From the NCBI RefSeq assembly GCF_021044935.1, contig NZ_JAJNMP010000003.1:620001-684000 (forward strand): a stretch of 64,000 bases of DNA. The letters are read 5' to 3'. Below are positions 1-63,126 of this stretch, piece after piece (position 1 is the first letter of the stretch; each line of letters starts with the position of its first letter). A program made the translations under genes and the position numbers. A model generated the notes under the pieces. That model had not been told where the DNA came from, did not search any database, and saw nothing but the letters and a program-made list of their open reading frames with translations. The DNA comes from Agromyces cavernae. Its GTDB lineage: Bacteria; Actinomycetota; Actinomycetes; Actinomycetales; Microbacteriaceae.

Positions 1-2946
1 GGTGAAGGAGCTTCCGCGGATGCCGTCGTGGGAGTTGTCGTCGCTCAGGACGACGCGGCCCGGCACCGGGGGCAGCAGCGCCTCGATGCTCGTCGTCAGC
101 GCGGCGAGTGCCTCGTCGATGTGCGCTTGGGACGCATCGGTGGCGTCGCCGACCGCGACCGCCGCCCCGAGCGCGTCCTCGAGGCCCGCGGTGTCCCCGA
201 CCGGGTCGGTGGCGAGGAAGCGCTCGGCGCGATCGACCTCGGTCCACAGCGCCGCTGCGTCGCCACGGTCGGGACGACCCATGCCGTCGCGCGAGACGAG
301 CCCGTTCCATCGCTCGACCCACTCCGCGCCGAACGACTCGGCGACGGCGCCCGACGACGAGAACTGCAGGGTCTCGAGGTCGAGTCCGGCGGCCTCGACG
401 GAATCGGGCTTCACGAGGTTCGTGTTGATCTTGTCGCTCCAGCGCGAGAGCGAGTACGACGACGCGGGATTCGCGAACGTGTTCGTGCTGCCCTGGTACT
501 CGCCGCCGCCGATGATCACCGAGTGGTCGAGTTCGTTGCGCGCCTGCACGTAGAGCGAGTCCTCGTTCTCCCAGATGTCCGAGCGGCTGCATCCGTTCGT
601 GGCATCGACCGCGTAGTCGGCGACGGTGCAGGGTTCGCCGGTCTCCGTCACGCGGGGGACGTACCAGTCGTCGATCTCGGGGAAGGCGATCGGGGTGCCG
701 TCGGAGTACTCGGCCGCGCCATTCGTGTAGTGCTCGACCCACGCCTCGATGATCTCGGGCGTCGAGCTGTACTTCTCGCCCTCGCGAACATCGAGGTACG
801 CGTTGAACCGGCTCTGCACGACCCAGGCGTTCGAGACCGGCAGCCCCTTCTCGCCCTTGCGGTGGTAGAGCTGATCGTGCCCGGTGCGGGCGACGTCGAT
901 GAACACGTTGTCGTTCGCGGTGTTGCTGTGGCCCGACTGGAAGAACACCCCCGAGTGGGAGTCCTTCACCACGTTGTGGTGGAAGCGCATGCCCGAGACG
1001 CCGTCGTCCATGTAGAACGCGTCGTTCTTGCCGCCGACCTTCTCGAAGAGGTTGTACGCGACCTCGTTGCCGAGGTAGGTGTAGTCGCGCCCGGTGTAGA
1101 CGACGCCCTGGTCGCCCGCGTTCTGGAGCACGTCGAAGAAGTGGTTGTGATTCACCTTCATGTCGTTGCCCATGATCTGGACGGCCATGTGCGGCGCATC
1201 GTGCACGTAGTTGTACTCGAACGAGTTGCCGACGCCGTAGAGGTAGCCCGCCGGAGTGTAGGTGGCGAGCTTCGAGAAGCGGGTGATCTCGTTGTGGTGC
1301 GCGACGTTGTCGCCGCGCTCGAGCGTGTCGCGGTCGCCGCCCCCCAGCAGCACTCCGCCGCCGCCGAGGTCGTGCAGGAACGAGTTCCGGACGACGTTGC
1401 CGTGTCCGCCGCGCACGGTCTCGTAGTCGGGCAGCGCGGTGATCGTCTCGGTGGTCTCGCCGATCCGGATGGCGTCCATGCTCACGTTCGAGATCTCGAC
1501 GCCATCGATGAGCGTGTCCTCGGCATCGAGCAGCTGGACCCCGCTCACGAGCGAGTTCGACATCGCCAGATCGCGCAGCACGACCCCGGTCGTGCCCTCG
1601 AGCGTGAAGAAGTTCTCGTCGAACGCCGAAAGGGTGATCTGCTTGCCGTCGATCGTGCCGCCCTCGGGCATGAAGTACAGTACGTCGTTGCCCTCGAAGC
1701 GGTCGATGTAGTACTCGCCGGGCGCGTCCAGCTCGGCGAGGACGTTGGTGGCCTTCACCTTGGTGTACCCGTCGACCGGGATGTACATCGAGGGGTACTT
1801 CGTGTACAGGGTCGTGCCGCTCCACGAGAGCATCCGGACCATCTCGTTCGCGTAGTTGTTGCCGAGGTAGCCCGCGAGCCAGCCCTCGGTCTCGTACCGG
1901 GAGTTGTCGATGTCCTCGATCCACTCGGGGTCTGCCTGCACCGGGATGTCGGCGTACTCGCCGAACCCGCGGGTGCCCCAGTCGTGCACGGTCGGCACCG
2001 CTTCGGGCGCCCAGCCCTGGTAGCGGTCGCCTTCGAGCGCCCGGCCGCCGACCTCGAAGATCGCCGGAGTCATCTTGCGGAGCTCGTCCTGCGACCAGGT
2101 GTCGCGCGAGACGCCGTCGGGCAACTGCTGCTTCTTGTCTTCGAACTGCGCGCGCGGCGAGGTGCCGCTCGCCTGCCAGTCGTCCTCGACGCCGAACCGA
2201 CCCTCGAGGTCGACGTGCATGAGGTCGCGCGGCGCGGTCGCGCCCCACTTGCTGCCCGTGCCCCAGAGGTGACAGTCCGTCTGCGAGGTCGTGCAGGAGT
2301 CGTCGTTCGGATACTCGGCAAGCGTCTGCAGCGTGCCGTCGACGGCGAGCTCGGGCGCGAACGGCTGCTGGAGCCAGTTGAAGCCGTTCTTGTACAGCGT
2401 GCCGGGTTCGACGCCGGCCGCGCCGAGGTCGTACACCCAGGCGCCGGCGCGAGCGCTCTCGTCGTGCAGTCGCGACTGCGACGAGAACTGCGGCTCGGCG
2501 AGCGCGTCGTCCGACATCTCGCTGAGCTTCTGCCACCCGTCGGCCGAGAGCTGATGGGCGCCGGTGATCTGCACGTCCTCGCCGCGATAGGCGGCGTACG
2601 TCACCCACGAGTGCTCGTCGCCCGCAAGCGTGATCGCGTCGTCGAGCACGTACTCGCCGCCTCGGATCCAGACCGTGCCCGGCGCATCCGCGCTCGTCCT
2701 GCCTGCCAGCGCATCGCGAGCGGCCGTGATCGTGCGCAGTGGCGAATCGATCGTGCCGTCGCTCGCGTCGTCGCCGTCAGGCGAGACGTAGACGACCAGC
2801 TCGGCCGCGGACGCGCTCGTCGACTGCGACGCCGCGTTCGCTGCCGCCGGCGCGGCGCACATGGCGCCGAGCGCGATGGCCGCGACGAGGGCGACAGGCC
2901 ATCGGCGAGGCACCGACCTCGTGTCGCCGGATTGCGTTCTCCTCAT
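1..2946 (-). CDS. Secreted right-handed parallel beta-helix protein (C-terminus beyond window)
   Basis: The frame opens at ATG 2946, with an AGGGAG ribosome site 6 bases upstream (2953-2958), and stays open to base 1, giving at least 982 residues. Residues 1-40 form a signal peptide (basic stretch, then VAAIALGAMCAAPAAANA). The mature start YVSPDGDDASDGT is typical of secreted beta-helix enzymes. From about residue 470 to 750 there are repeated helix rungs with Asn ladders (FEYNYVHDAP, VNHNHFFDVL). Near residues 905-950 an alpha-helical stretch (LEDALGAAVAVGDAT...LAALTTSIEALL) resembles a FIVAR domain, and a further domain begins at the window edge. Family members act on extracellular polysaccharides as lyases or hydrolases; the substrate cannot be read here. 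It diverges from a probable sugar-catabolic operon and shares its fold with the gene ending at 6468. Confidence 0.85.
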   Translation of the reverse strand, partial: MRRTQSGDTRSVPRRWPVALVAAIALGAMCAAPAAANAASQSTSASAAELVVYVSPDGDDASDGTIDSPLRTITAARDALAGRTSADAPGTVWIRGGEYVLDDAITLAGDEHSWVTYAAYRGEDVQITGAHQLSADGWQKLSEMSDDALAEPQFSSQSRLHDESARAGAWVYDLGAAGVEPGTLYKNGFNWLQQPFAPELAVDGTLQTLAEYPNDDSCTTSQTDCHLWGTGSKWGATAPRDLMHVDLEGRFGVEDDWQASGTSPRAQFEDKKQQLPDGVSRDTWSQDELRKMTPAIFEVGGRALEGDRYQGWAPEAVPTVHDWGTRGFGEYADIPVQADPEWIEDIDNSRYETEGWLAGYLGNNYANEMVRMLSWSGTTLYTKYPSMYIPVDGYTKVKATNVLAELDAPGEYYIDRFEGNDVLYFMPEGGTIDGKQITLSAFDENFFTLEGTTGVVLRDLAMSNSLVSGVQLLDAEDTLIDGVEISNVSMDAIRIGETTETITALPDYETVRGGHGNVVRNSFLHDLGGGGVLLGGGDRDTLERGDNVAHHNEITRFSKLATYTPAGYLYGVGNSFEYNYVHDAPHMAVQIMGNDMKVNHNHFFDVLQNAGDQGVVYTGRDYTYLGNEVAYNLFEKVGGKNDAFYMDDGVSGMRFHHNVVKDSHSGVFFQSGHSNTANDNVFIDVARTGHDQLYHRKGEKGLPVSNAWVVQSRFNAYLDVREGEKYSSTPEIIEAWVEHYTNGAAEYSDGTPIAFPEIDDWYVPRVTETGEPCTVADYAVDATNGCSRSDIWENEDSLYVQARNELDHSVIIGGGEYQGSTNTFANPASSYSLSRWSDKINTNLVKPDSVEAAGLDLETLQFSSSGAVAESFGAEWVERWNGLVSRDGMGRPDRGDAAALWTEVDRAERFLATDPVGDTAGLEDALGAAVAVGDATDASQAHIDEALAALTTSIEALLPPVPGRVVLSDDNSHDGIRGSSFT

Positions 2947-3060
2947 TGAGATCTCCCTTGTCTCTCATCGGTGCACACGCGGCGACGAGCAGGCGGCCGT
3001 GTCGGATCGGATCGGACCGTCGCAGCCGCCCTCATTGCCGGAGCACATGGAACACCTAGG

Positions 3061-53555: not shown

Positions 53556-53663
53556 CGGGTTTCGAGACGGCCCTGGCGGGCCTTCTCAAATCACGAAGGC
53601 GGGTTTCGAGACGGCCCTGGCGGGCCTCCTCAACCCACGATGACGGCGGGCCTCCTCAGCCCG
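53556..53663. repeat. REP-like elements upstream of flp (two copies and a partial)
   Basis: CGGGTTTCGAGACGGCCCTG begins both copies (53556 and 53600), each ending CTTCTCAAATC or CTCCTCAACCC, with an inner CCCTGGCGGG. A third partial copy ends at 53663 and contains the stop codon of the prepilin peptidase gene. The rest of the 295-base gap (53361-53555) should carry the flp promoter; CTTTCC and TTAGGT near 53410-53445 are weak candidates. Confidence 0.8.
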
Positions 53664-54312
53664 GGGCGCCGACGAGCAGCACCGCGATGAGCGCCCCCGC
53701 GAGCATCGACGGCCCGAACGGGATCGACCCCCGCAGCGTCACCCGCCGCAAGGCGAGCGCCACGAGCGCGATCACTCCCCCGACCACGAACGCGGCCAAG
53801 AGCCCGATGAGCCACGCGCTGAGCCCGAACCAGCCGAGCAGCAGCCCGATCACGAGGGCGAGCTTCACGTCGCCCATGCCCATCGACGACGGCGAGATGA
53901 GGGCGAGGACGAAGTACACGGCGAACATGCCCGCCGCGCCGACGAGCGCCCAGACGAGCCGCATCCAGTCACCGGACGCCCAGGTCGCCGGCACGAGCAG
54001 CACCGCGACCACGGCCAGCGTGGGGAACACGACTGCGTTCGGCAGGCGTTTCTCGGCGAGGTCGACGACGGTGAGCACCGTCGCGGCGGCCGCGAACACC
54101 AGCAGTGCGGGCAGCAGCCAGGTCAGCCCGAATCGCAGCGTGATCAGCCCGAACGTCACCGCGGTGATCACCGCGGACGAGACGCGAGCGGCGTGGAGGG
54201 ACATCCGATCGTGCTTCATCGAACGCGACGCCCACGCGGACAGCGGCCACCAGCCGAGGGCGAAGCCGACGGCGGCGGCGGATGTCGCGGCGAGCGCGAT
54301 CGCGAGAGGCAT
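53656..54312 (-). CDS. Prepilin peptidase (TadV/CpaA type)
   Basis: The 218-residue membrane aspartyl protease has about seven membrane segments and both catalytic Asp motifs: VDLAEKRLPN and GMGDVKLALVIG. It would process the Flp prepilin and the TadE/TadG pseudopilins encoded next to it. TACGCT lies seven bases upstream of ATG 54312 without a ribosome site, so a separate leaderless transcript is likely. Its last codons (GAPG, stop) fall in a REP-like sequence. Confidence 0.87.
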   Translation of the reverse strand: MPLAIALAATSAAAVGFALGWWPLSAWASRSMKHDRMSLHAARVSSAVITAVTFGLITLRFGLTWLLPALLVFAAAATVLTVVDLAEKRLPNAVVFPTLAVVAVLLVPATWASGDWMRLVWALVGAAGMFAVYFVLALISPSSMGMGDVKLALVIGLLLGWFGLSAWLIGLLAAFVVGGVIALVALALRRVTLRGSIPFGPSMLAGALIAVLLVGAPG

Positions 54313-54376
54313 GAGTTGGAGCGTACCGGGTGGCGATCGCGAGACCCGTCACCCTGTGGATCGGGCTCCTTGCAGG

Positions 54377-54467
54377 CGGTTTCGAGACGGCGCTGCGCGC
54401 CTCCTCAACCCGCGGACTCCGCAGCACAGGCGGTTTCGAGACGGCGCTGCGCGCCTCCTCAACCCGC
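54377..54467. repeat. Two REP-like elements
   Basis: Two direct copies (54377-54413 and 54430-54467) of a 37-base unit starting GCGGTTTCGAGACGGCGCTG and ending CCTCCTCAACCCGC, with an internal GCGC-rich dyad. They fill the gap between the prepilin peptidase start and the fprA stop. Confidence 0.88.
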
Positions 54468-54475
54468 AGAGGCGG

Positions 54476-55855
54476 TTACGCCTCCCCGACCGAGATGTCG
54501 ACCATCTCGTCGCGGGGCACGACCTTCACGCGCACGCGACCCTCGGCCTGCCCGAGCGCCAGCTCGTGCTCGTCGAGGCGGTGCCACCCGTCGAGGTCGG
54601 TGTAGCGGATTCCGCGCGACTCGAGCATCTCGATCACCGACTCCTCGGAGGGCGACTCGGGCCGCCACCAGTTGCCGAGGTCGTTGATGACGTGCTTGAT
54701 CGTCTCCATGGCGTCGCTCTTGGTGTGGCCGATGAGGCCGACGGGGCCGCGCTTGATCCACCCGGTCGCGTACACGCCGTACAGCTGCCGCGACTCGCCG
54801 GTCTCGGCGTCGTGGAAGAGCACCTGGCCCTCGTGGTTGGGGATGACCCCGTATTCGCGGTCGAACGGGATGCCGGGCAGCGGCGTACCGAAGTAGCCGA
54901 CGGCGCGATACACGGCCTGCACGGGCAGTTCGCGGATCTCGCCGGTTCCGACGACTCCGCCCTCGCCGTCGGGAGCGGTGCGCTCCCAGCGGATGCGGCC
55001 GACGCGCCCGTTTCCATCCGAGACGATCTCGAGCGGCTTCGCGAAGAAGTGCAGGTGCAGACGCCGCGACGCGTGGCCGACCTCGCGCTGACGCCACTGG
55101 TTGAGCACCTTGTCGATCACGAACACCTGCTTGTTGCCCGAGACCGCGGCGCGGGCGGCATCGTCGTAGTCGAAGTCCTCGTCGTAGACGATCATGTCGA
55201 CGTCGCGCAGTTCGCCGAGTTCGCGCAGTTCGAGGGGGGTGAACTTCACCGAGGTCGGTCCGCGGCGCCCGAAGACGTGCACGTCGGTGACGGGCGAGGC
55301 GGCGAGACCGGATGCCACGTTGGCGGGGATCTCGGTGGGCATGAGGTCTTCGACGTGCTTGGCGAGCATGCGCGAGATGTCGAGGGCGACGTTGCCGTTG
55401 CCGATGACCGCGATCTCCTTGGCCTCGAGCGGCCAGGTGCGCGGGAAGTCGGGGTGCCCGTCGAACCAGCTCACGAACTCGGCAGCGCCATACGAGCCCT
55501 CGAGGTCGATGCCGGGGATTCGCAGCGACGCGTCGCGCACGGCGCCGGTCGCGAAGATCACGGCGTTGTAGTGCTTCTTGAGGTCGTCGAGCGTGATGTC
55601 CTCGCCGTAGCGCACGTTGCCGAAGATGCGGATGTCGCCACGGTCGAGCACCTCGCGAAGCGCGTTGATGATGCCCTTGATGCGCGGGTGGTCGGGCGCC
55701 ACGCCATAGCGCACGAGCCCGTAGGGCGCCGGCAGGTGGTCGAACAGGTCGATCGACACGTCGAAGTTGCGCTCGGCCTTCAGCAGGATGTCGGCGGCGT
55801 AGATGCCGGCCGGGCCGGCTCCGACGATCGCCAGTCGCAGCTTGTTCCTCGTCAC
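54476..55855 (-). CDS. fprA: Ferredoxin-NADP+ reductase, adrenodoxin-reductase type
   Basis: The 459-residue flavoprotein opens with the FAD fold LAIVGAGPAGIYAADILLK, then APYGLVRYGVAPDHPRIK, an NADP fold EIAVIGNGNVALDISRML and HVFGRRGPTSVKFTPLE, and ends with YATGWIKRGPVGLIGHTKSDAMETI. It transfers electrons from NADPH to ferredoxins for P450s, FeS or cobalamin enzymes. AGGAGA lies eight bases before GTG 55855; the polyprenyl synthase ends 22 bases upstream. Confidence 0.92.
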   Translation of the reverse strand: MTRNKLRLAIVGAGPAGIYAADILLKAERNFDVSIDLFDHLPAPYGLVRYGVAPDHPRIKGIINALREVLDRGDIRIFGNVRYGEDITLDDLKKHYNAVIFATGAVRDASLRIPGIDLEGSYGAAEFVSWFDGHPDFPRTWPLEAKEIAVIGNGNVALDISRMLAKHVEDLMPTEIPANVASGLAASPVTDVHVFGRRGPTSVKFTPLELRELGELRDVDMIVYDEDFDYDDAARAAVSGNKQVFVIDKVLNQWRQREVGHASRRLHLHFFAKPLEIVSDGNGRVGRIRWERTAPDGEGGVVGTGEIRELPVQAVYRAVGYFGTPLPGIPFDREYGVIPNHEGQVLFHDAETGESRQLYGVYATGWIKRGPVGLIGHTKSDAMETIKHVINDLGNWWRPESPSEESVIEMLESRGIRYTDLDGWHRLDEHELALGQAEGRVRVKVVPRDEMVDISVGEA

Positions 55856-55877
55856 GTGCGGTTTCTCCTAGGTATGG

Positions 55878-57006
55878 TCAGCTCTGCCGTTCGACGACGG
55901 TCTCGGCGAAGCGCGTGAGCGCCTTCTTCACGCCGCCTTCAGGCAGCGGCGCGAGGGCGGCGACCGCTTCGCGCGCCCAGCGGTGGGCCTCAGCGAGCGT
56001 AGCGCGCGTTGCTTCGTGTTCACGCAGTTCGGCGACGATCGCGTCGACGGTGGCCTTCGACGGCACGATGCGCGACGCCATGGTGTTCGTGTCGAGCGGG
56101 TCGCCGAGATCGGCCGCGACCGCCGTGACCGTGACCACGTCGCGCTCGATGCGACGCAGCAGGTCGGCCGACGCAGCATCGGTCTTGGCCATCTCGGCCA
56201 GCCGCAGCAGCGGGAGCGTGACCACGCCGGCGCGCAGATCGGTGCCGGGAACCTTGCCGGTCTCTTCGGGCTGCGGCGACAGGTCGATGACGTCGTCGAT
56301 GAGCTGGAACGCCACGCCCACCTTCTCGCCGAATTCGATGATGGGCTTCTCGTAGGCCGGGTCGGCACCGGAGAACACGACGCCCGACTGCGCCGCGGCC
56401 GCGATGAGCGACCCGGTCTTGTCGGCGAGCACCTTGATGTAGTGCGCGATCTTGTCGTCACCCTCGCCCGGGCCCACGGTCTCGTGCAACTGGCCCAGCA
56501 CGAGCCGCTCGAACGTGTCGGCCTGCATGCGGATCGCCCGCTCACCGAGCTTCGCCATGAGCTGGCTCGCCCTCGCGAACAGCAGGTCACCGGTGAGGAT
56601 CGCGACCGAGTTCCCCCACACCGCATGTGCGGCCGGCACGCCGCGGCGACGGTCGGACTCGTCCATGACGTCGTCGTGGTACAGGCTGCCGAGGTGGGTG
56701 ATCTCGATGGCCTCGGCGGCAGTGACGACATCGTCGTTGATGCCCGCGCCGAGCTGTGCCGTGAGCAGTGTGAGCAGGGGGCGAACGCGCTTGCCCCCCG
56801 CCTCGAGCAGGTACCGCGTCGAGACGTCGGCGATGGAGTCGGCGAACCGCACCTCGTCGAGCAGGCCGGCCTCGACGCGTTCGATGCCGTCGTCGATCGC
56901 CTTCGCCATCGCCTTGTCAGCGGGCGAAGCGAAGACTTTCTCGCTCAGGCCCAGGTTGGCTGCAAGGGCCGAGCCGCGACGGGCGACCGGGTGGGTCGGA
57001 TTCACA
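55878..57006 (-). CDS. Trans-polyprenyl diphosphate synthase (menaquinone side chain)
   Basis: The 375-residue prenyltransferase has the first Asp-rich motif HDDVMDESDRRRG, the second QLIDDVIDLSP and GGKRVRPLLTLLTA. The small residues before the first Asp motif (THLGSLYH) fit a long-chain product. Location between fprA and menG supports production of the menaquinone side chain. The start GTG 57006 follows TAGGCT by seven bases and has no ribosome site (leaderless); frames further upstream run into the repeat region. Confidence 0.88.
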
Positions 57007-57031
57007 GGGACAAGCCTACCGTTGGGCGTTG

Positions 57032-57118
57032 GTCGAGGAGCGCCCGACGCGGGAGGACGCGTCTCGAGACCAGCGGAGGGTTTCGAGACGGCGCCGGCGT
57101 TCCTGCTCAACCCACGGG
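57032..57118. repeat. REP-like element between menG and the polyprenyl synthase
   Basis: Two opposed cores: GGTCGAGGAGCGCCCGACG at the left and GGGTTTCGAGACGGCGCCGG to GCTCAACCCAC at the right. The right end contains the menG stop codon (57107-57109). Confidence 0.82.
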
Positions 57119-57820
57119 CGCCGGCTTCGTGGCGCGGTGCAGCGCGACGACGCCCATGGTGAGGTTGCGCCAGGCGACGTCGACGTAGCCCGCGCCGCGG
57201 ATCCACCCCGCGAGCGTGCGCTGGTCTGGCCACGCGTTGATCGACTCGTTGAGGTAGTCGTACGCCGTGTCGTTCGAGCTCGAGAGCCGCACGAGCGGCG
57301 GCATCACGTAGCGCTGGTAGGCGTTGTAGCCGAACCGCACGAACGGCACCGGCGGGGTCGAGAACTCGCAGATCACGAGGCGCCCGCCCGACTTCGTCAC
57401 GCGGAAGAACTCGGCGAGCGCCCGCTTCGGCTCGTTCACGTTGCGCAGCCCGAATGAGATCGTCACGGCGTCGAAGCTCGCGTCATCGAACGGCAGCTTG
57501 GTGGCGTCGGCCTCGACGAACACGAGGTTGGGTACGTGCGCCTGCCGCCTGCGGCCGACGTCGATCATGCCCGGCGAGAAGTCGGCTGCGACGACGGATG
57601 CCCCGGACCGTGCCAGGCTCGCACTCGACGTGCCTGTGCCGGCCGCGACATCGAGGATGCGCTGCCCCGGCTTGGGGTCGACGGCCCTGGTGGTCGCGAC
57701 CCGCCACAGCGGGGCGTTGCCGACCGACAGCACGTTGTTCGTGCGGTCGTAGCGGGCGGCCACCCGGTCGAACATCGCCGAGACCTCGTGTGGATCCTTA
57801 CCGAGGTCAGCGCGTGTCAT
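57107..57820 (-). CDS. menG: Demethylmenaquinone methyltransferase
   Basis: The 237-residue SAM enzyme of the UbiE/MenG family has VSAMFDRVAARYDRTNNVLS, the SAM site ILDVAAGTGTSSASLARSG, FVEADATKLPFDDASFDAVTISFGLRNV and RVTKSGGRLVICEFSTP. It methylates demethylmenaquinone in the last step of the pathway. ATG 57820 lies six bases after TAGACT with no ribosome site. The 3' end runs into a REP-like element that provides the TGA. Confidence 0.92.
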   Translation of the reverse strand: MTRADLGKDPHEVSAMFDRVAARYDRTNNVLSVGNAPLWRVATTRAVDPKPGQRILDVAAGTGTSSASLARSGASVVAADFSPGMIDVGRRRQAHVPNLVFVEADATKLPFDDASFDAVTISFGLRNVNEPKRALAEFFRVTKSGGRLVICEFSTPPVPFVRFGYNAYQRYVMPPLVRLSSSNDTAYDYLNESINAWPDQRTLAGWIRGAGYVDVAWRNLTMGVVALHRATKPAPVG

Positions 57821-57919
57821 GCGTCGAGTCTACGGCGCGGGACATCCGCTCATTCTGTGAGCTTTCTTCGCGTTTCCATGCATAGGAATGCTTCTCCGTG
57901 GGCCCGCGTTGCACCGGAC

Positions 57920-58204
57920 ATGAAGGCAATCTGGAACGGAACCGTGATCGCGCAGTCCGACGAGACCGTCGTCGTCGAGGGCAACCACTACTTCCCGCGC
58001 GAGTCGATCGACGAGCAGTACTTCACCGAGAGCCAGAACCGCAGCGTGTGCCACTGGAAGGGCACCGCCGACTACTTCCACGTCGAGGTCGACGGCAGGC
58101 GCAACCCGAACGCCGCCTGGTACTACGCGACGCCGTCCGAGGCCGCGGCCGAGATCCGCGGGTACGTCGCGTTCTGGCACGGGGTCGACGTCGTCGCGGC
58201 GTAA
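57920..58204 (+). CDS. DUF427 domain protein
   Basis: A 94-residue small beta protein of the DUF427 family: MKAIWNGTVIAQSDETVVVEGNHYFPRESI, CHWKGTADYFHVEVDG and AWYYATPSEAAAEIRGYVAFW. Function is unknown; members are widespread in actinobacteria. ATG 57920 has a modest purine stretch upstream. It stands alone between menG and a cluster of repeats. Confidence 0.88.
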   Translation: MKAIWNGTVIAQSDETVVVEGNHYFPRESIDEQYFTESQNRSVCHWKGTADYFHVEVDGRRNPNAAWYYATPSEAAAEIRGYVAFWHGVDVVAA

Positions 58205-58210
58205 CCGCGT

Positions 58211-58392
58211 CGGTCGAGTAGGCGCGCCAGCGCCGCCTCGAAACCCCCACCCGTGGGTTGAGGAGGCGCGCAGCGCCGTCTCGAAACCCCGCCCCGTGGG
58301 TTGAGGAGGCGCGCCCCGCCGTCTCGAAACCCCCCACCAGGGTCTCGAGACGCTGGTCTCGAGACGGCGCTGCGCGCCTCCTCGACCCACCG
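58211..58392. repeat. Cluster of four or more REP-like elements
   Basis: Alternating units GTGGGTTGAGGAGGCGCGC...GTCTCGAAACCC (58254, 58298) and the opposite orientation GTCTCGAGACGGCGCTGCGC...CTCCTCGACCCACC fill 180 bases between DUF427 and menF. Opposed copies can fold into long hairpins and may end transcription of the DUF427 gene. Confidence 0.85.
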
Positions 58393-58431
58393 CCTTCGAC
58401 GCTCCTCGATCGGCGGACGTAGGCTGGTGCG

Positions 58432-59751
58432 GTGAACCAGAAGCTCGTCGTGCGCACCGAGCCGGTCGATGAGCTCGCGCCGCTGATCCCGCGGGCCGAT
58501 CCGCGACATCCGCTGCTCTGGATGCGGCGCGGCGAGGGCATCGTCGGCCTCGGAGAGACGCTGCGCATCGAAACCAGCGGACCGACCCGCATCGAAGACG
58601 CCGCCGCCGCATGGCGTTCGCTCGCCGCGATGGCGAGCGTCGACGACCGCGTCGGACTGCCCGGCACCGGCCTGATCGCCTTCGGCGCCATCGCGTTCGC
58701 CGACGAGTCGGCCGCAACGAGCGTGCTCGTCGTGCCGTCGCTCGTACTGGGGCGACGCGAAGGGCGCGCGTGGGTGACGCGGATCGCGCTGGCCGAGGCC
58801 GATGCGGCGGGCGCTGACGGCTCGGCCGACTCTGCAGGTTCGGCGGGCGCGAGAGCGGCGAGCGAATCGGATGTCGCGGGCCACGCCTTCCCGCCACTCG
58901 AGATTCCCGAGCCCTCGCCCAAGCGGCGTGTGCCGCGCGTGGCATTCGAACCGGGCGCCGTGCCGCCGCCGGCATATGAGGCGAACGTCGCCGAGGCCGT
59001 GCGCCGCATCGACGGCGGCGAGCTCGAGAAGGTCGTGCTGGCGCGGCAGCTCGTGGGCGAGTTGCACGAGGAGGACGGGCTGCGTGCCGTCATCAACCGG
59101 CTCGCCGAGGACTACCCCGACACGTGGGTGTTCGCCGTGGACGGGCTGATCGGCGCGAGCCCCGAGACGCTCGTCCGCGTCGACCACGGCACCGTCTCGG
59201 CGCGCGTGCTCGCGGGCACGACATCGCGAGGCGCGGGCGAGGCATCCGATCGCGAACGCGCGCTCGCGCTGGCGGCCTCGCACAAGGACCTCGCCGAGCA
59301 CGCCCTCGCCGTGGCAAGCGCCGTGCAGCGTCTCGAACCGCACACCGCGCGGCTCGACGCGAGCCCCGAGCCGTTCACGCTGCAGCTGCCGAACCTGTGG
59401 CACCTCGCCACCGACCTCAAGGGCACCCTCGGCGACGGGTCGAGCTCGCTCGACCTCGTGAGCGCCGTGCACCCCACGGCCGCGGTCGCGGGCACGCCGC
59501 GGCGAACCGCGCTGGCCGTGCTCGCCGAACTCGAGGGATTCGATCGCGGTCGCTACGCCGGCCCCGTCGGCTGGATCGACGGCGACGGCGACGGCGAATG
59601 GGCGATCGCGCTGCGCTGTGCGCAGGTCGAGCCCGACGGCGCGGTCGCGGCATATGCCGGTTGCGGCATAGTGCACGACTCGGTGCCGGCCGACGAGCTC
59701 GCCGAGACGCTCATGAAGTTCCGGCCGATCGTCGAGGCCTTCGGCGGGTAG
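58432..59751 (+). CDS. menF: Isochorismate synthase
   Basis: The 439-residue chorismate-binding enzyme converts chorismate to isochorismate, the first committed step of menaquinone synthesis. The C-terminal catalytic half shows GELEKVVLARQ (the Lys that activates water), FGAS-type LIGASPETLVRV, LAGTTSRG, SHKDLAEH, HPTAAVAGTPR, GPVGWIDGDGDGEWAIALR and YAGCGIV. A Ser/Ala/Gly-rich linker lies at about 125-150. The GTG at 58432 follows TAGGCT by six bases and lacks a ribosome site. It lies opposite to menD and menG. Confidence 0.92.
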   Translation: MNQKLVVRTEPVDELAPLIPRADPRHPLLWMRRGEGIVGLGETLRIETSGPTRIEDAAAAWRSLAAMASVDDRVGLPGTGLIAFGAIAFADESAATSVLVVPSLVLGRREGRAWVTRIALAEADAAGADGSADSAGSAGARAASESDVAGHAFPPLEIPEPSPKRRVPRVAFEPGAVPPPAYEANVAEAVRRIDGGELEKVVLARQLVGELHEEDGLRAVINRLAEDYPDTWVFAVDGLIGASPETLVRVDHGTVSARVLAGTTSRGAGEASDRERALALAASHKDLAEHALAVASAVQRLEPHTARLDASPEPFTLQLPNLWHLATDLKGTLGDGSSSLDLVSAVHPTAAVAGTPRRTALAVLAELEGFDRGRYAGPVGWIDGDGDGEWAIALRCAQVEPDGAVAAYAGCGIVHDSVPADELAETLMKFRPIVEAFGG

Positions 59752-59757
59752 CCGCTG

Positions 59758-59884
59758 AGTGGGTTGAGGAGCGAGCGCAGCGAGCGTGCGCAGCGGGTTG
59801 AGGAGCGAGCGCAGCGAGCGTCTCGAAACCCGGCTGCCCGCACGTCGGGTTTCGAGACGGCGCCGACGCGCCTCCTCAACCCGC
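59758..59884. repeat. REP-like elements between menF and ppk2
   Basis: GTGGGTTGAGGAGCGAGCGC is followed by a second CGGGTTGAGGAGCGAGCGC, GTCTCGAAACCC, then an opposed GGGTTTCGAGACGGCGCCG to CCTCCTCAACCCGC. The convergent arrangement between two genes suggests a terminator role. Confidence 0.85.
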
Positions 59885-59889
59885 AGAAC

Positions 59890-60747
59890 TCAGCTCGCGG
59901 CGAGGCGGGCCTTCTGCTCCTCGATGTCGTAGTCGGCCTTCGGCCACTCGAGGTTCATCGCCTCGAGCGCGTCGATGAGCAGGTGCTGCACGGCGAGGCG
60001 CGCGTACCACTTGCGGTTCGCGGGGATGACGTACCACGGGGCATCCGTCGTCGTCGTGCGGTCGAATGCGACCTGGAACGCGCCCATGTAGTCGGACCAG
60101 TGCAGGCGTTCGTCGATGTCGCCGGGATTGAACTTCCAATGTTTGTCGGGGCGGTCGAGGCGCTCCTGCAGGCGATGCTTCTGCTCGTCCCCCGAGATGT
60201 GCAGCATCACCTTGACGACCGTCGTGCCAGTCTCGGCGAGTTCGCGTTCGAACTCGTTGATGGCGCCGTAACGGCGCTCGATCTCGTCGGGTGGCGCGAA
60301 TCCGTGCACTCGGCCGATCAGCACGTCTTCGTAGTGCGACCGGTCGAAGACGCCGATCATGCCGGCTTCGGGCACCTGCTTGCGGATGCGCCACAGGAAG
60401 TCATGCGCGAGCTCCTCGTCAGTCGGCTTCTTGAAGGCCGCGAGCTGCACGCCCTGCGGGTCGACGGCGCCCATGACGTGCTTGACGATGCCGCCCTTGC
60501 CCGCGGTGTCCATGGCCTGCAGCACGAGCAGCACTCGGCGCTCGTCGTCACCGCCGCGACTGTTCGCGAACAGCTGCTCCTGCAACTCGGCCAGGATCGC
60601 GGCGCCCTCGGCAAGCGATTCCTGACCCGCGGCCTTGTCACCGTCGAAGCCCGGGTGCGCATCGGGGTCGACGTCGGCGAGCGTGAACCCGTCGCCGACT
60701 CGCAGCAGTTCACTCGGATCCGACGCCCAGTACGACTCGTGGCCCAT
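59890..60747 (-). CDS. Polyphosphate kinase 2 family nucleotide phosphotransferase
   Basis: The 285-residue PPK2 protein has Walker A VLQAMDTAGKGGIVKHVM, the lid-side GVFDRSHYEDVLIGRVHGF and the C-terminal WYVIPANRKWYARLAV. Such enzymes move phosphate between polyphosphate and AMP, ADP or GDP; the subclass is not readable with certainty. ATG 60747 has GGGGAG upstream. A 460-base gap with a hairpin array separates it from menD on the same strand. Confidence 0.9.
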   Translation of the reverse strand: MGHESYWASDPSELLRVGDGFTLADVDPDAHPGFDGDKAAGQESLAEGAAILAELQEQLFANSRGGDDERRVLLVLQAMDTAGKGGIVKHVMGAVDPQGVQLAAFKKPTDEELAHDFLWRIRKQVPEAGMIGVFDRSHYEDVLIGRVHGFAPPDEIERRYGAINEFERELAETGTTVVKVMLHISGDEQKHRLQERLDRPDKHWKFNPGDIDERLHWSDYMGAFQVAFDRTTTTDAPWYVIPANRKWYARLAVQHLLIDALEAMNLEWPKADYDIEEQKARLAAS

Positions 60748-60856
60748 CACACGCTCCCCTCGTGCGGCGCCGCGCCGCGCAGGTCTCCATCCTGCCAAGC
60801 GCGGGCGTGCTCGTCGAGGCGCGCCGCGCCGCGGGGCGCCCCTCGCCCCTCTCGTC

Positions 60857-61190
60857 GAGAGTGCAGTGCGCGCCCCCGGGGGGCGCGAAGTGCACCCTCG
60901 GTGGGTGGGTTCGACTCTCCTTGAGAGTGCAGTGGCCGCCCCCGCGGAGGGCGCGAAGTGCACCCTCGGCGGGTGGGTTCAACTCTCCTTTGACCTCGAG
61001 CGTGCAGTGGCCGCCCCCGCGGGGGGCGCGCAGTGCACCCTCGGCGGGTGGGTTCAACTCTCTCCTTGACCTCGAGAGCGCGGGCCGCCCCCGCGGGGGG
61101 CGCGAAGTGCACCCTCGGTGGGTGGGTTCGACTCTCCTTGACCTCGACAGTGCAGTCGCCGCCCCGCGGGGCGCGAAGTGCACTCTCGAC
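60857..61190. repeat. Array of five nested-hairpin repeat units
   Basis: Four full units (starts 60857, 60923, 60998, 61074; 66-76 bases each) and one partial unit (61146). Each unit has outer arms GAGAGT/ACTCTC, middle arms GTGCA/TGCAC and an inner CGCCCCC/GGGGGCG, followed by CCTCGGTGGGTGGGTTC. The units differ by a few bases. The array lies between menD and ppk2. The remaining bases 60748-60856 show no gene. Confidence 0.9.
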
Positions 61191-61209
61191 GAATCCGTTC
61201 GCGACCCGG

Positions 61210-63126
61210 TCAGCGCTGGAGCGGGACCTCGAGGATCGACAGGCCGTCGATGCGGGTGCCGAGGGCCTCATCGAGCTCGCCGCGGGTCGTGGCGCGCGCG
61301 TAGTCCCAGCCGTAGGCGGCGGCGAGCGCAGCGAGGTCGACCTGTTGGGGCGTGAACTGCACGCGGTCGAACGCGTCGGCGGGCGCAGTGCCCGCGACCT
61401 CGAGCGCGTCGAAGATCGTACCGCCGCCGTCGTTGCCGACGATGAGCTGCAGACGCGGGCGGGCCTCCCCGTCGCCGATCAGCAGCGAGCCCACGTCGTG
61501 CAGCAGGGTGAGGTCGCCGATGAGCGCGCGGGTCACACCGCCGGCGCCCGAGCCCGCGGGTCTCGAGACGGTCGCTGCGCTCACTCCTCGACCAGCCTCG
61601 GGGTTTCGAGACGCGTCCGGCTGCGCCGCGCGCTCCTCAACCCGCGAATCGGCCGACTGGCTCGCGATCGCGATGCCGAGCGCGGTCGCGACCGTGCCGT
61701 CGATGCCCGCGAGACCGCGGTTCGCGTGAGCGGTGATGCGACGCCCGGGCACGGCACGGTCGGCCGAGCGGATGAGTCGCGACGCCCCGAACACGAGCCG
61801 GTCGTGCGGCCACGTCGCCGCCCACACGGCGTCGACGAGCATGCGCCGCGTGATCGGCGCCCGCACCGCGGCGAGTTGCGCCTTCATGTACTCGCGCTGC
61901 GCGACGAAGTCGGACACGTGCCCGGTCTCATCGATGCCGCTCGCGAGCGGCGCGCCCTCGGGAAGCCCCGCAGTCACGAGCGCGCGGCTCGCGTGCACCC
62001 AGCGGCCCACCCAGGCGCGCTCGTCTGCGGCCTGCGGATGTCCCGCCACCTGCACCGCCCGCTCGAACCGGCGCACGCGCCGGCCGGGGTTGAACCACTC
62101 GATGCCCGACGGCGCCACGACGATGGTCTCGACGTCGTCGCGCTGCGCGAGCGCCGGAACCTCGCGCGACAGCGTCGGATGCCCGAACACCACTGCCCGC
62201 TGCACCTGATCGCCGAACCCCGGCTCACGCAGCAGGTCGCGGTACGCGACCACGAGGTTCGGCCCGAAATGGGCGCCGCTCGTGACCTCGGCGAAGAGCG
62301 GCCAGCCGCCGGCGCGGGCGAACTCCTCGGCTGCGGCACCGGCGCCCGCACCGGCGATGACGACCGTGCGCGGGCCGGGCTCGATGAGGGCGCCGTGGGC
62401 CGCCGCGGGTTGAGGAGCGCCCGACGAAGGAGGACGCGTCTCGAAACCCGGTGCGCCATCGGGGTTTCGAGACGCTGGTTTCGAGGCGGCGCCGGCGCGC
62501 CTCCTCAACCCGCCGATGTCGAACGGGGACGACAGGGGCTCGCGCAACTGCAGGTTCACGTGCACCGGACCCGGCCCGGGGTGCGCGACGAACGCGCCCG
62601 CAGCATCGAAGCCGAGCGCCGCGGCCACGGCGTCGCGGGCGAGGCGCGCTGCGGCATCCGACTCCCCAGCCGCACCCTCGGGGGCCGTGACGTCGCGTTC
62701 GAGCCGCACCGCGCCGGCGAAGATCCCGGGCTGCATCGTCGTCTGGTTCGAACGGATGCCGCGCAGCTCGGCCGGCCGATCGGCCGTGAGGGCGATGAGC
62801 GGCACGCCCGCGTGGTGCGCCTCGAGCACCGCGGGGTGCAGGTTGGCGACCGCCGTGCCCGACGTCGTCACGACGATCGACGGATGCCGCGAATCGAGCG
62901 CGAGGCCGAGCGCGAGGAACCCCGCACCGCGCTCGTCGATGCGCACGTGCAGGCGCAGGAGGCCGGCACGCTCGAACTCGGCCGCGGCGAGGGCGAGGGC
63001 CTGCGACCGCGAACCGGGGGCGACGACGAGGTCGCGCACGCCGGCACGCACGAACTCCTCGAGCATGGCCACGACGAAGGCGGTGGCTGGCGCGGACGAA
63101 CTTGCGGGCACGCCCGCGTCAGGCAT
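61210..63126 (-). CDS. menD: 2-succinyl-5-enolpyruvyl-6-hydroxy-3-cyclohexene-1-carboxylate synthase
   Basis: MenD is the ThDP enzyme that adds succinic semialdehyde to isochorismate. The 638-residue frame is intact and has [65 protein letters not shown] and the ThDP/Mg motif [14 protein letters not shown]. It is about 65-80 residues longer than usual because two REP-like sequences lie in frame: residues about 205-241 (linker after the first domain) and about 493-524 (loop just before the ThDP motif). ATG 63126 overlaps the upstream gene by eight bases. Activity with the inserts is assumed, since no other menD is visible and the frame is preserved. Confidence 0.93.
61554..61646. repeat. REP-like element inside menD (second insertion)
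   Basis: Contains GCGGGTCTCGAGACGGTCGC, ACTCCTCGACCAGCC, GGGGTTTCGAGACGCGTCCG and GCGCTCCTCAACCCGCG, the same cores as the intergenic REP family. It is read in frame by menD, encoding [20 protein letters not shown] and neighbouring residues. Confidence 0.85.
62404..62514. repeat. REP-like element inside menD (first insertion)
   Basis: Opposed cores CGGGTTGAGGAGCGC...CGTCTCGAAACCC and GGGTTTCGAGACGC...CTCCTCAACCCGCC span about 110 bases. In menD they encode [20 protein letters not shown], then [15 protein letters not shown], residues with no counterpart in usual MenD proteins. Confidence 0.87.

Follow-up and report, generated by a model that had tools for sequence, protein, structure and literature searches.

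In-frame palindromic repeats are known from Rickettsia and from other bacteria. The Rickettsia palindromic elements lie in frame inside conserved genes and, according to the available portions of two reports, are apparently tolerated there (PMC2229807, PMC10969869). The GTAG/CGTC-tagged REPs are short palindromes, often arranged as inverted dimers, and the available text of the study describing them places some of them in open reading frames with many kinds of function, DNA repair among them (PMC3733652). The same text reports dual REP inserts in uvrA of O. terrae and, in two Xanthomonas species, a recB gene with a REP at roughly corresponding positions, and it already proposes that insertion of REPs in flexible linkers is neutral (Di Nocera et al. 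2013, PMC3733652). The terms 'actinomyc', 'Clavibacter', 'Streptomyces' and 'Mycobacterium' do not occur in this text, whose species are listed in figures and supplements. None of the records listed in our literature searches described REPs inside genes of Agromyces or Microbacteriaceae, and in the available text of a paper on Agromyces (PMC5217419) the word 'palindromic' appears solely as part of the CRISPR abbreviation.

Here, we analysed a stretch of 64,000 nucleotides of Agromyces cavernae (the window) and compared its REPs with those of other members of the genus. Like the Rickettsia elements, as far as these are described in the sources above, the Agromyces REPs are inserted in frame in protein genes. 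Yet, the Rickettsia elements measure ~105-150 bp and belong to obligate intracellular bacteria, whereas the Agromyces units are mostly 34-42 nt long and often form doublets. Unlike the Rickettsia elements by their description, the Agromyces REPs have also been captured recurrently at two sites of one gene. The GTAG/CGTC superfamilies are described as carrying an unpaired terminal tag, whereas the main Agromyces type ends in GGGTT.../...AACCC; in a second Agromyces type, GGTCTCGATACG...CTACTCGACC, GTAG lies inside the complement and not at the end. Finally, unlike in the available text of the GTAG/CGTC study, one genus here allows filled and empty sites to be compared with decayed, deleted and expanded ones. 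What is new is thus recurrent capture at the same sites of an actinobacterial core enzyme, together with the range of states that one genus displays. We think it very probable that a family of REP doublets without a recognisable RAYT inserts widely in these genomes, and that in-frame insertions survive where they are tolerated and supply linker sequence. Repeat DNA would in this way have been turned into new protein pieces, above all in the two flexible stretches of MenD. Many Agromyces strains are in culture, the two MenD sites can be compared in REP-free, freshly filled, decayed and expanded states, and HutH in an internally deleted one. Hence, this genus offers a direct test of whether such repeats are mere litter in proteins or a source of useful new segments.

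The REP family and its copies

REP units were searched with a two-arm scan, GGTTTCGAGACG followed after 2-24 nt by CTCCTCAACCC, allowing at most 5 mismatches in 23 positions. The window contains 16 such units and the reversed window 0; at 6 mismatches or fewer the counts are 22 and 4. Of the 16 units, 12 lie at five places outside coding segments and four in menD. The five places are the following:

53558..53636, plus strand: REP pair with 3 and 0 mismatches, outside coding segments (two-arm scan)
54378..54465, plus strand: REP pair, intergenic (two-arm scan)
57030..57113, no strand: REP doublet (minus, plus), adjoining the end of the gene at 57110-57829 (two-arm scan)
58211..58388, no strand: four-unit REP cluster with 0-4 mismatches, upstream of the isochorismate synthase gene (58432-59751)
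59795..59882, no strand: REP doublet, intergenic, between the isochorismate synthase and PPK2-family genes (two-arm scan)

All 16 units fall within 53,558-62,511, with none in the first 53.5 kb of the window. Many REP units also surround menD on contig C3 of A. humatus. As for known RNA families, the sole Rfam match in the 53-64 kb region (E <=1) was mir-577, with 32 bits against a gathering threshold of 100. It coincides with the intergenic REP doublet at ~59793-59883, and we ascribe it to a hairpin that resembles this microRNA model by chance.

A stricter pattern, GGTTTCGAGACGN{4,24}CTCAACCC, was used genome-wide; it matches 70 times in the 4.07 Mb of A. cavernae and 0 times in the reversed control. 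These 70 copies agree with the usual description of REPs as imperfect palindromes of 20-40 nt present in many copies. The strict units of this genome span 28-42 nt, and a doublet with its spacer roughly 85-105 nt. In the genome stretches examined, 90 of 98 units have an inner spacer of 11, 12, 13 or 19 nt, which corresponds to a unit of 34-42 nt. For the second REP type, 40 stretches of A. cavernae DNA yielded 16 units with at most 1 mismatch, against 0 for the reversed control.

In four genomes, the stretches examined contain 99 inverted pairs within 60 nt, of which 98 are in the minus-plus order, and the spacer between paired units has its mode at 17-18 nt. Such common inverted pairing with a short spacer is shared with the REPIN/RAYT systems. 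Unlike in these systems, the Y1/RAYT transposase profile (PF01797), which was positive in 5 of 14 control genomes, has no match in any of 60 Agromyces genomes, in which RAYT was sought as the mobiliser of the REPs. No transposase having been found, we infer the mobility of the REPs from the distribution of their copies and from the sites that are free of them.

At least one strict unit is present in 22 of the 60 genomes of the genus, with 0 in the reversed control of all 60. The genomes with at least 49 strict units are those of A. humatus (85), G019 (74), A. cavernae (70), Soil535 (58) and A. italicus (49).

REP units inside menD

The gene that carries four of the window's REP units encodes an enzyme of menaquinone biosynthesis, and menaquinones are reported from Agromyces aureus in the available text of PMC5217419. 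Its features are:

61210..63126, minus strand: menD, 2-succinyl-5-enolpyruvyl-6-hydroxy-3-cyclohexene-1-carboxylate synthase, 638 codons without a stop
62404..62514, no strand: linker-1 insert, a REP doublet, residues ~206-240 (sequence)
62407..62448, minus strand: linker-1 REP unit with a 19-nt inner spacer and 0 of 23 arm mismatches (arm scan)
62463..62474, plus strand: isolated left arm of a REP, GGTTTCGAGACG, separating the two linker-1 units (read from the sequence)
62477..62511, plus strand: linker-1 REP unit with a 12-nt inner spacer and 1 mismatch (two-arm scan)
61554..61646, no strand: linker-2 insert with two REP units, residues ~495-523 (sequence)
61602..61643, plus strand: linker-2 REP unit with 0 mismatches (two-arm scan)
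61559..61594, plus strand: linker-2 REP unit with 3 mismatches (two-arm scan)

An earlier note on this DNA had reported two REP-like palindromes at 61554-61646 and 62404-62514, read through in frame by menD. Both stretches are present in the sequence, the peptides it quoted for them are correct, and the reading frame is indeed uninterrupted over the 638 codons. The two-arm scan and the comparison with relatives bear out the REP origin of the segments; the count of two has to be revised, since there are four units, two in each linker. Read on either strand, a REP doublet gives much the same sequence, and this explains the words common to the two inserts, such as ASRNP. The two units of linker 2 differ when compared with A. 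humatus, where 61602-61643 is missing and faces a gap of ~48 nt in the alignment, while a degraded counterpart aligns with 61559-61594. The latter unit is probably the older one.

The gene is the only full-length match in a MenD search of the genome, the other two being partial matches to the N-terminal part of MenD with 38% and 31% identity. Its product belongs to the TIGR00173 menD equivalog family, with 321.4 bits against a curated cut-off of 244.2. Between A. cavernae and A. humatus the MenD core has a dN/dS of 0.112 (538 codons), a value indicating that it is under purifying selection. On the family score, the core dN/dS and the single full-length match, the refuting case named in the earlier note, a menD pseudogene with an intact copy elsewhere, was rejected. 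Inside the inserts, an alignment of 51 MenDs, mostly of Microbacteriaceae, has 0 invariant columns.

The AlphaFold model of MenD (mean pLDDT 83.3, pTM 0.86) agrees with the earlier placement of the segments at a linker and at a loop. Linker 1 sits between the strands 188-193 and 254-258, and linker 2 between the helix 478-501 and the strand 532-537, which leads into GDLTLLHD. Runs of at least 3 residues with pLDDT <50 occur only at 217-242 and 512-527, i.e. in and just beyond the REP-encoded stretches (~206-240 and ~495-523), although the shallow alignment depth in these stretches by itself lowers pLDDT. Residues 206-216 and 495-511 lie outside these runs and are better modelled, the helix reaching residue 501.

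MenD linkers across the genus

The DNA of menD was compared for 41 of the 60 Agromyces genomes. Type-A units with at most 2 mismatches are found in linker 1 of all five REP-rich genomes and in linker 2 of four of them. Among the other 36 genes, that of Agromyces sp. S2-1-8 (G033) alone has such a unit. Linker 1 of G080 contains the second REP type with 1 mismatch, and the remaining MenDs of REP-poor genomes have degraded traces or none. Even at 4 mismatches or fewer, 34 of the 41 genes lack a type-A unit in both linkers. The segments are thus absent from most relatives, and the possibility raised in the earlier note, that they are ancestral to all MenD proteins of the family, could be set aside. 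Corrected for relatedness, the association between the REP load of a genome and the presence of REPs in its MenD comes down to 3 independent pairs, of which 2 agree and 0 go against it (p = 0.5).

A simple pattern finds REP words in 7 of 120 listed homologs, the window's own included, these being the best 120 of 4253. Leaving the window's own aside, 23 of 119 listed homologs were hand-picked for reading and for the tree. They add further REP-bearing MenDs, among them P0003-P0005, close relatives of A. cavernae whose linker 1, as judged from the protein only, reads like the second REP type, partly in tandem. The second type lies, or seems to lie, in linker 1 of MenD in other species (L278 and P0003-P0005). 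The linkers of REP-free relatives also differ in length and sequence. The claim of the earlier note that REPs create new protein segments holds therefore in part: the linkers are renewed or lengthened by REPs, they are not created from nothing.

In a tree of the MenD core (43 rows, linkers removed), one clade of REP-bearing proteins includes A. cavernae, A. humatus, G019, S2-1-8 and A. italicus, together with the REP-free lapidis. The MenD of Soil535 stands apart, beside the REP-free ramosus and G009, and its residues flanking both inserts match those of these two. An AU test on 37 of these rows rejects the six REP-bearing rows as one clade (p = 1.6e-78), and still does so when the REP-free lapidis is added to the group (p = 1.9e-8), the groups having been defined only on inspection of the first tree. 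Rejecting a single clade does not by itself exclude presence in an ancestor followed by loss. Both MenD sites carry REPs in at least two lineages. The four MenD units of Soil535 have 1, 0, 0 and 2 mismatches in the 23 arm positions, whereas its menD differs from that of A. cavernae by a dS of 0.52 (594 codons, linkers included). Being so near the consensus despite this divergence, the REPs of Soil535 probably arrived, or were renewed, after its lineage had separated from that of A. cavernae.

One might instead suppose a single ancestral insertion in each linker, inherited, then widely lost or degraded, with copies kept fresh by selection or gene conversion. The sites are indeed the same across species, the frames largely so, and A. 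cavernae and Soil535 share an almost identical linker-2 unit with a common first codon. The degraded copies of bauzanensis, H66, S2-1-8 and Marseille-P2726 would also fit such a history. Yet, this is at odds with units near the consensus at a synonymous divergence of ~0.5 and with inner spacers of linker 1 that vary by species (11, 12 or 17 nt in the first unit, 13 or 19 nt in the second); it is also disfavoured by the rejection of a single REP-bearing core clade, with which loss in between is still compatible. We regard it as improbable.

Other genes and the fate of REP copies

To call a REP cluster intragenic we applied a codon-score test on both of its sides in four genomes. The test flagged 22 of 205 clusters, one of which, linker 2 of the A. 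italicus MenD, was counted twice because of overlapping stretches. By genome the counts are 7 of 55 for A. cavernae, 5 of 50 for Soil535, 5 of 41 for A. italicus and 5 of 59 for G019, the last covering 40 of 43 stretches. The menD gene is thus one of many genes hit by REPs. In-frame REPs occur besides in genes for RecF, an MFS transporter, HutH, LigD and a LysR regulator in A. cavernae; for hydrolase, MoeZ-like and AidB-like proteins in Soil535; for GH38 and oligopeptidase B-like proteins in A. italicus; and for ClpC-like, GntR/FCD and GH38 proteins in G019. The GH3, pterin-binding, ResB and APH/aminotransferase frames of a first pass were unflagged by the stricter codon-score test and are uncounted. 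One of these unflagged cases is a long frame (L099, ~2459-3036) in which REP units lie between APH-like and aminotransferase class-III domains.

Three of these sites were compared in 12 genomes. The linker between the phosphoesterase and ligase of LigD has units with at most 5 mismatches in 9 of them, those of lapidis and S2-1-8 being found only at 5 mismatches. At the RecF site there is a unit in A. cavernae, in A. humatus and, degraded, in A. italicus. HutH contains a doublet in A. cavernae and no REP in 10 of the 12 genomes; in A. humatus the middle of the doublet has been lost in frame and the outer arms are kept. No clean target-site duplication was seen at HutH. In MenD, copies have drifted in S2-1-8, bauzanensis and H66, and linker 1 of A. 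humatus (L081) has amplified arms that encode GGLRS-type and DASRNP-type repeats. Drift, loss of the middle and tandem expansion are the steps expected if REPs feed the evolution of linkers. At the DNA level, the REP arms of this A. humatus linker form a coding minisatellite with units of 15 and 18 nt, and the linker is lengthened.

These observations are best explained by the following scenario. Short imperfect palindromes, GGTTTCGAGACG...CTCCTCAACCC, mostly of 34-42 nt, would have spread in some Agromyces genomes, often moving as inverted doublets with a spacer of ~17-18 nt. They would insert in many places and be mostly purged from genes; with about one tenth of the clusters flagged as intragenic, most insertions in genes have probably been lost. 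The survivors would be stop-free insertions of whole codons at points where the protein tolerates added length, and the added segments are presumably produced as part of the protein. The left end of the doublet has a TGA in one of its three frames. The doublet being the same on both strands, a gene would gain a similar peptide (VEE or GLR ... ASRNP ... GFET ... PQP) whichever orientation enters. MenD would have two tolerant sites, the linker that follows the first domain and the loop preceding the strand that leads into GDLTLLHD. Once in place, copies would diverge, be shortened by loss of their middle part or multiply in tandem, giving rise to species-specific linkers. Intragenic survivors use the VEE frame in 17 of 23 minus-units and the GFET frame in 17 of 24 plus-units, counts in which rows share descent; this unevenness may reflect descent or selection rather than tolerance.

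The predominance of the GFET frame, together with the repeated capture of the same two MenD sites and the tandem expansion in A. humatus, might also be taken as adaptive domestication, the REP peptide being a useful tether or interaction segment selected in MenD and also in LigD. Such selection seems unlikely, since the linkers evolve more loosely than the core between A. cavernae and A. humatus (dN/dS of 0.46 over 72 codons vs 0.11), many species have no REP segments in MenD, and the sequences differ among species after capture. Tolerated insertion accounts for the MenD segments in our preferred reading.

Another explanation invokes the nucleic acid and not the peptide: palindromes might be kept in menD for a role in RNA or DNA, such as a hairpin slowing ribosomes at a domain boundary or the tuning of transcripts. 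The predicted fold of linker 1 (-69.3 kcal/mol against a mean of -52.8) beats 200 of 200 shuffles (z = -4.0), and several REP sites lie between domains (in the LigD, MoeZ-like, AidB-like and GH38 proteins). But the fold of linker 2 is ordinary (z = -1.0, with 35 of 200 shuffles as good), which weakens a general requirement for an RNA hairpin, and other REP sites lie within domains (RecF, HutH, MFS). A conserved role is also at odds with the missing 0-mismatch unit of linker 2 in A. humatus and with the 34 MenD genes lacking type-A units in both linkers. We give it little credence. Repeats are a common cause of misassembly, but an artefact, be it a pseudogene, a misassembly or a mis-called frame, is practically precluded by the open frame, the coding signal on both sides, the strong family score, the purifying selection, and the same arrangement seen in further assemblies as well as in protein records from several sources.

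One might speculate, more tentatively, that linkers in Agromyces evolve chiefly through the turnover of REPs. Most hypervariable linkers of the MenD and LigD kind would then derive from REPs decayed to various degrees, several REP types would feed them, and some segments would have become selected modules. We hold this broader view to be possible, with the odds somewhat against it.

A repeat of another family lies next to menD. Between the PPK2-family gene and menD, at 60851-61201, a sequence of ~68-75 nt occurs in five tandem copies, which have GTGCA/TGCAC at their ends, are palindromic and rich in GC in their middle, and differ from the REPs.
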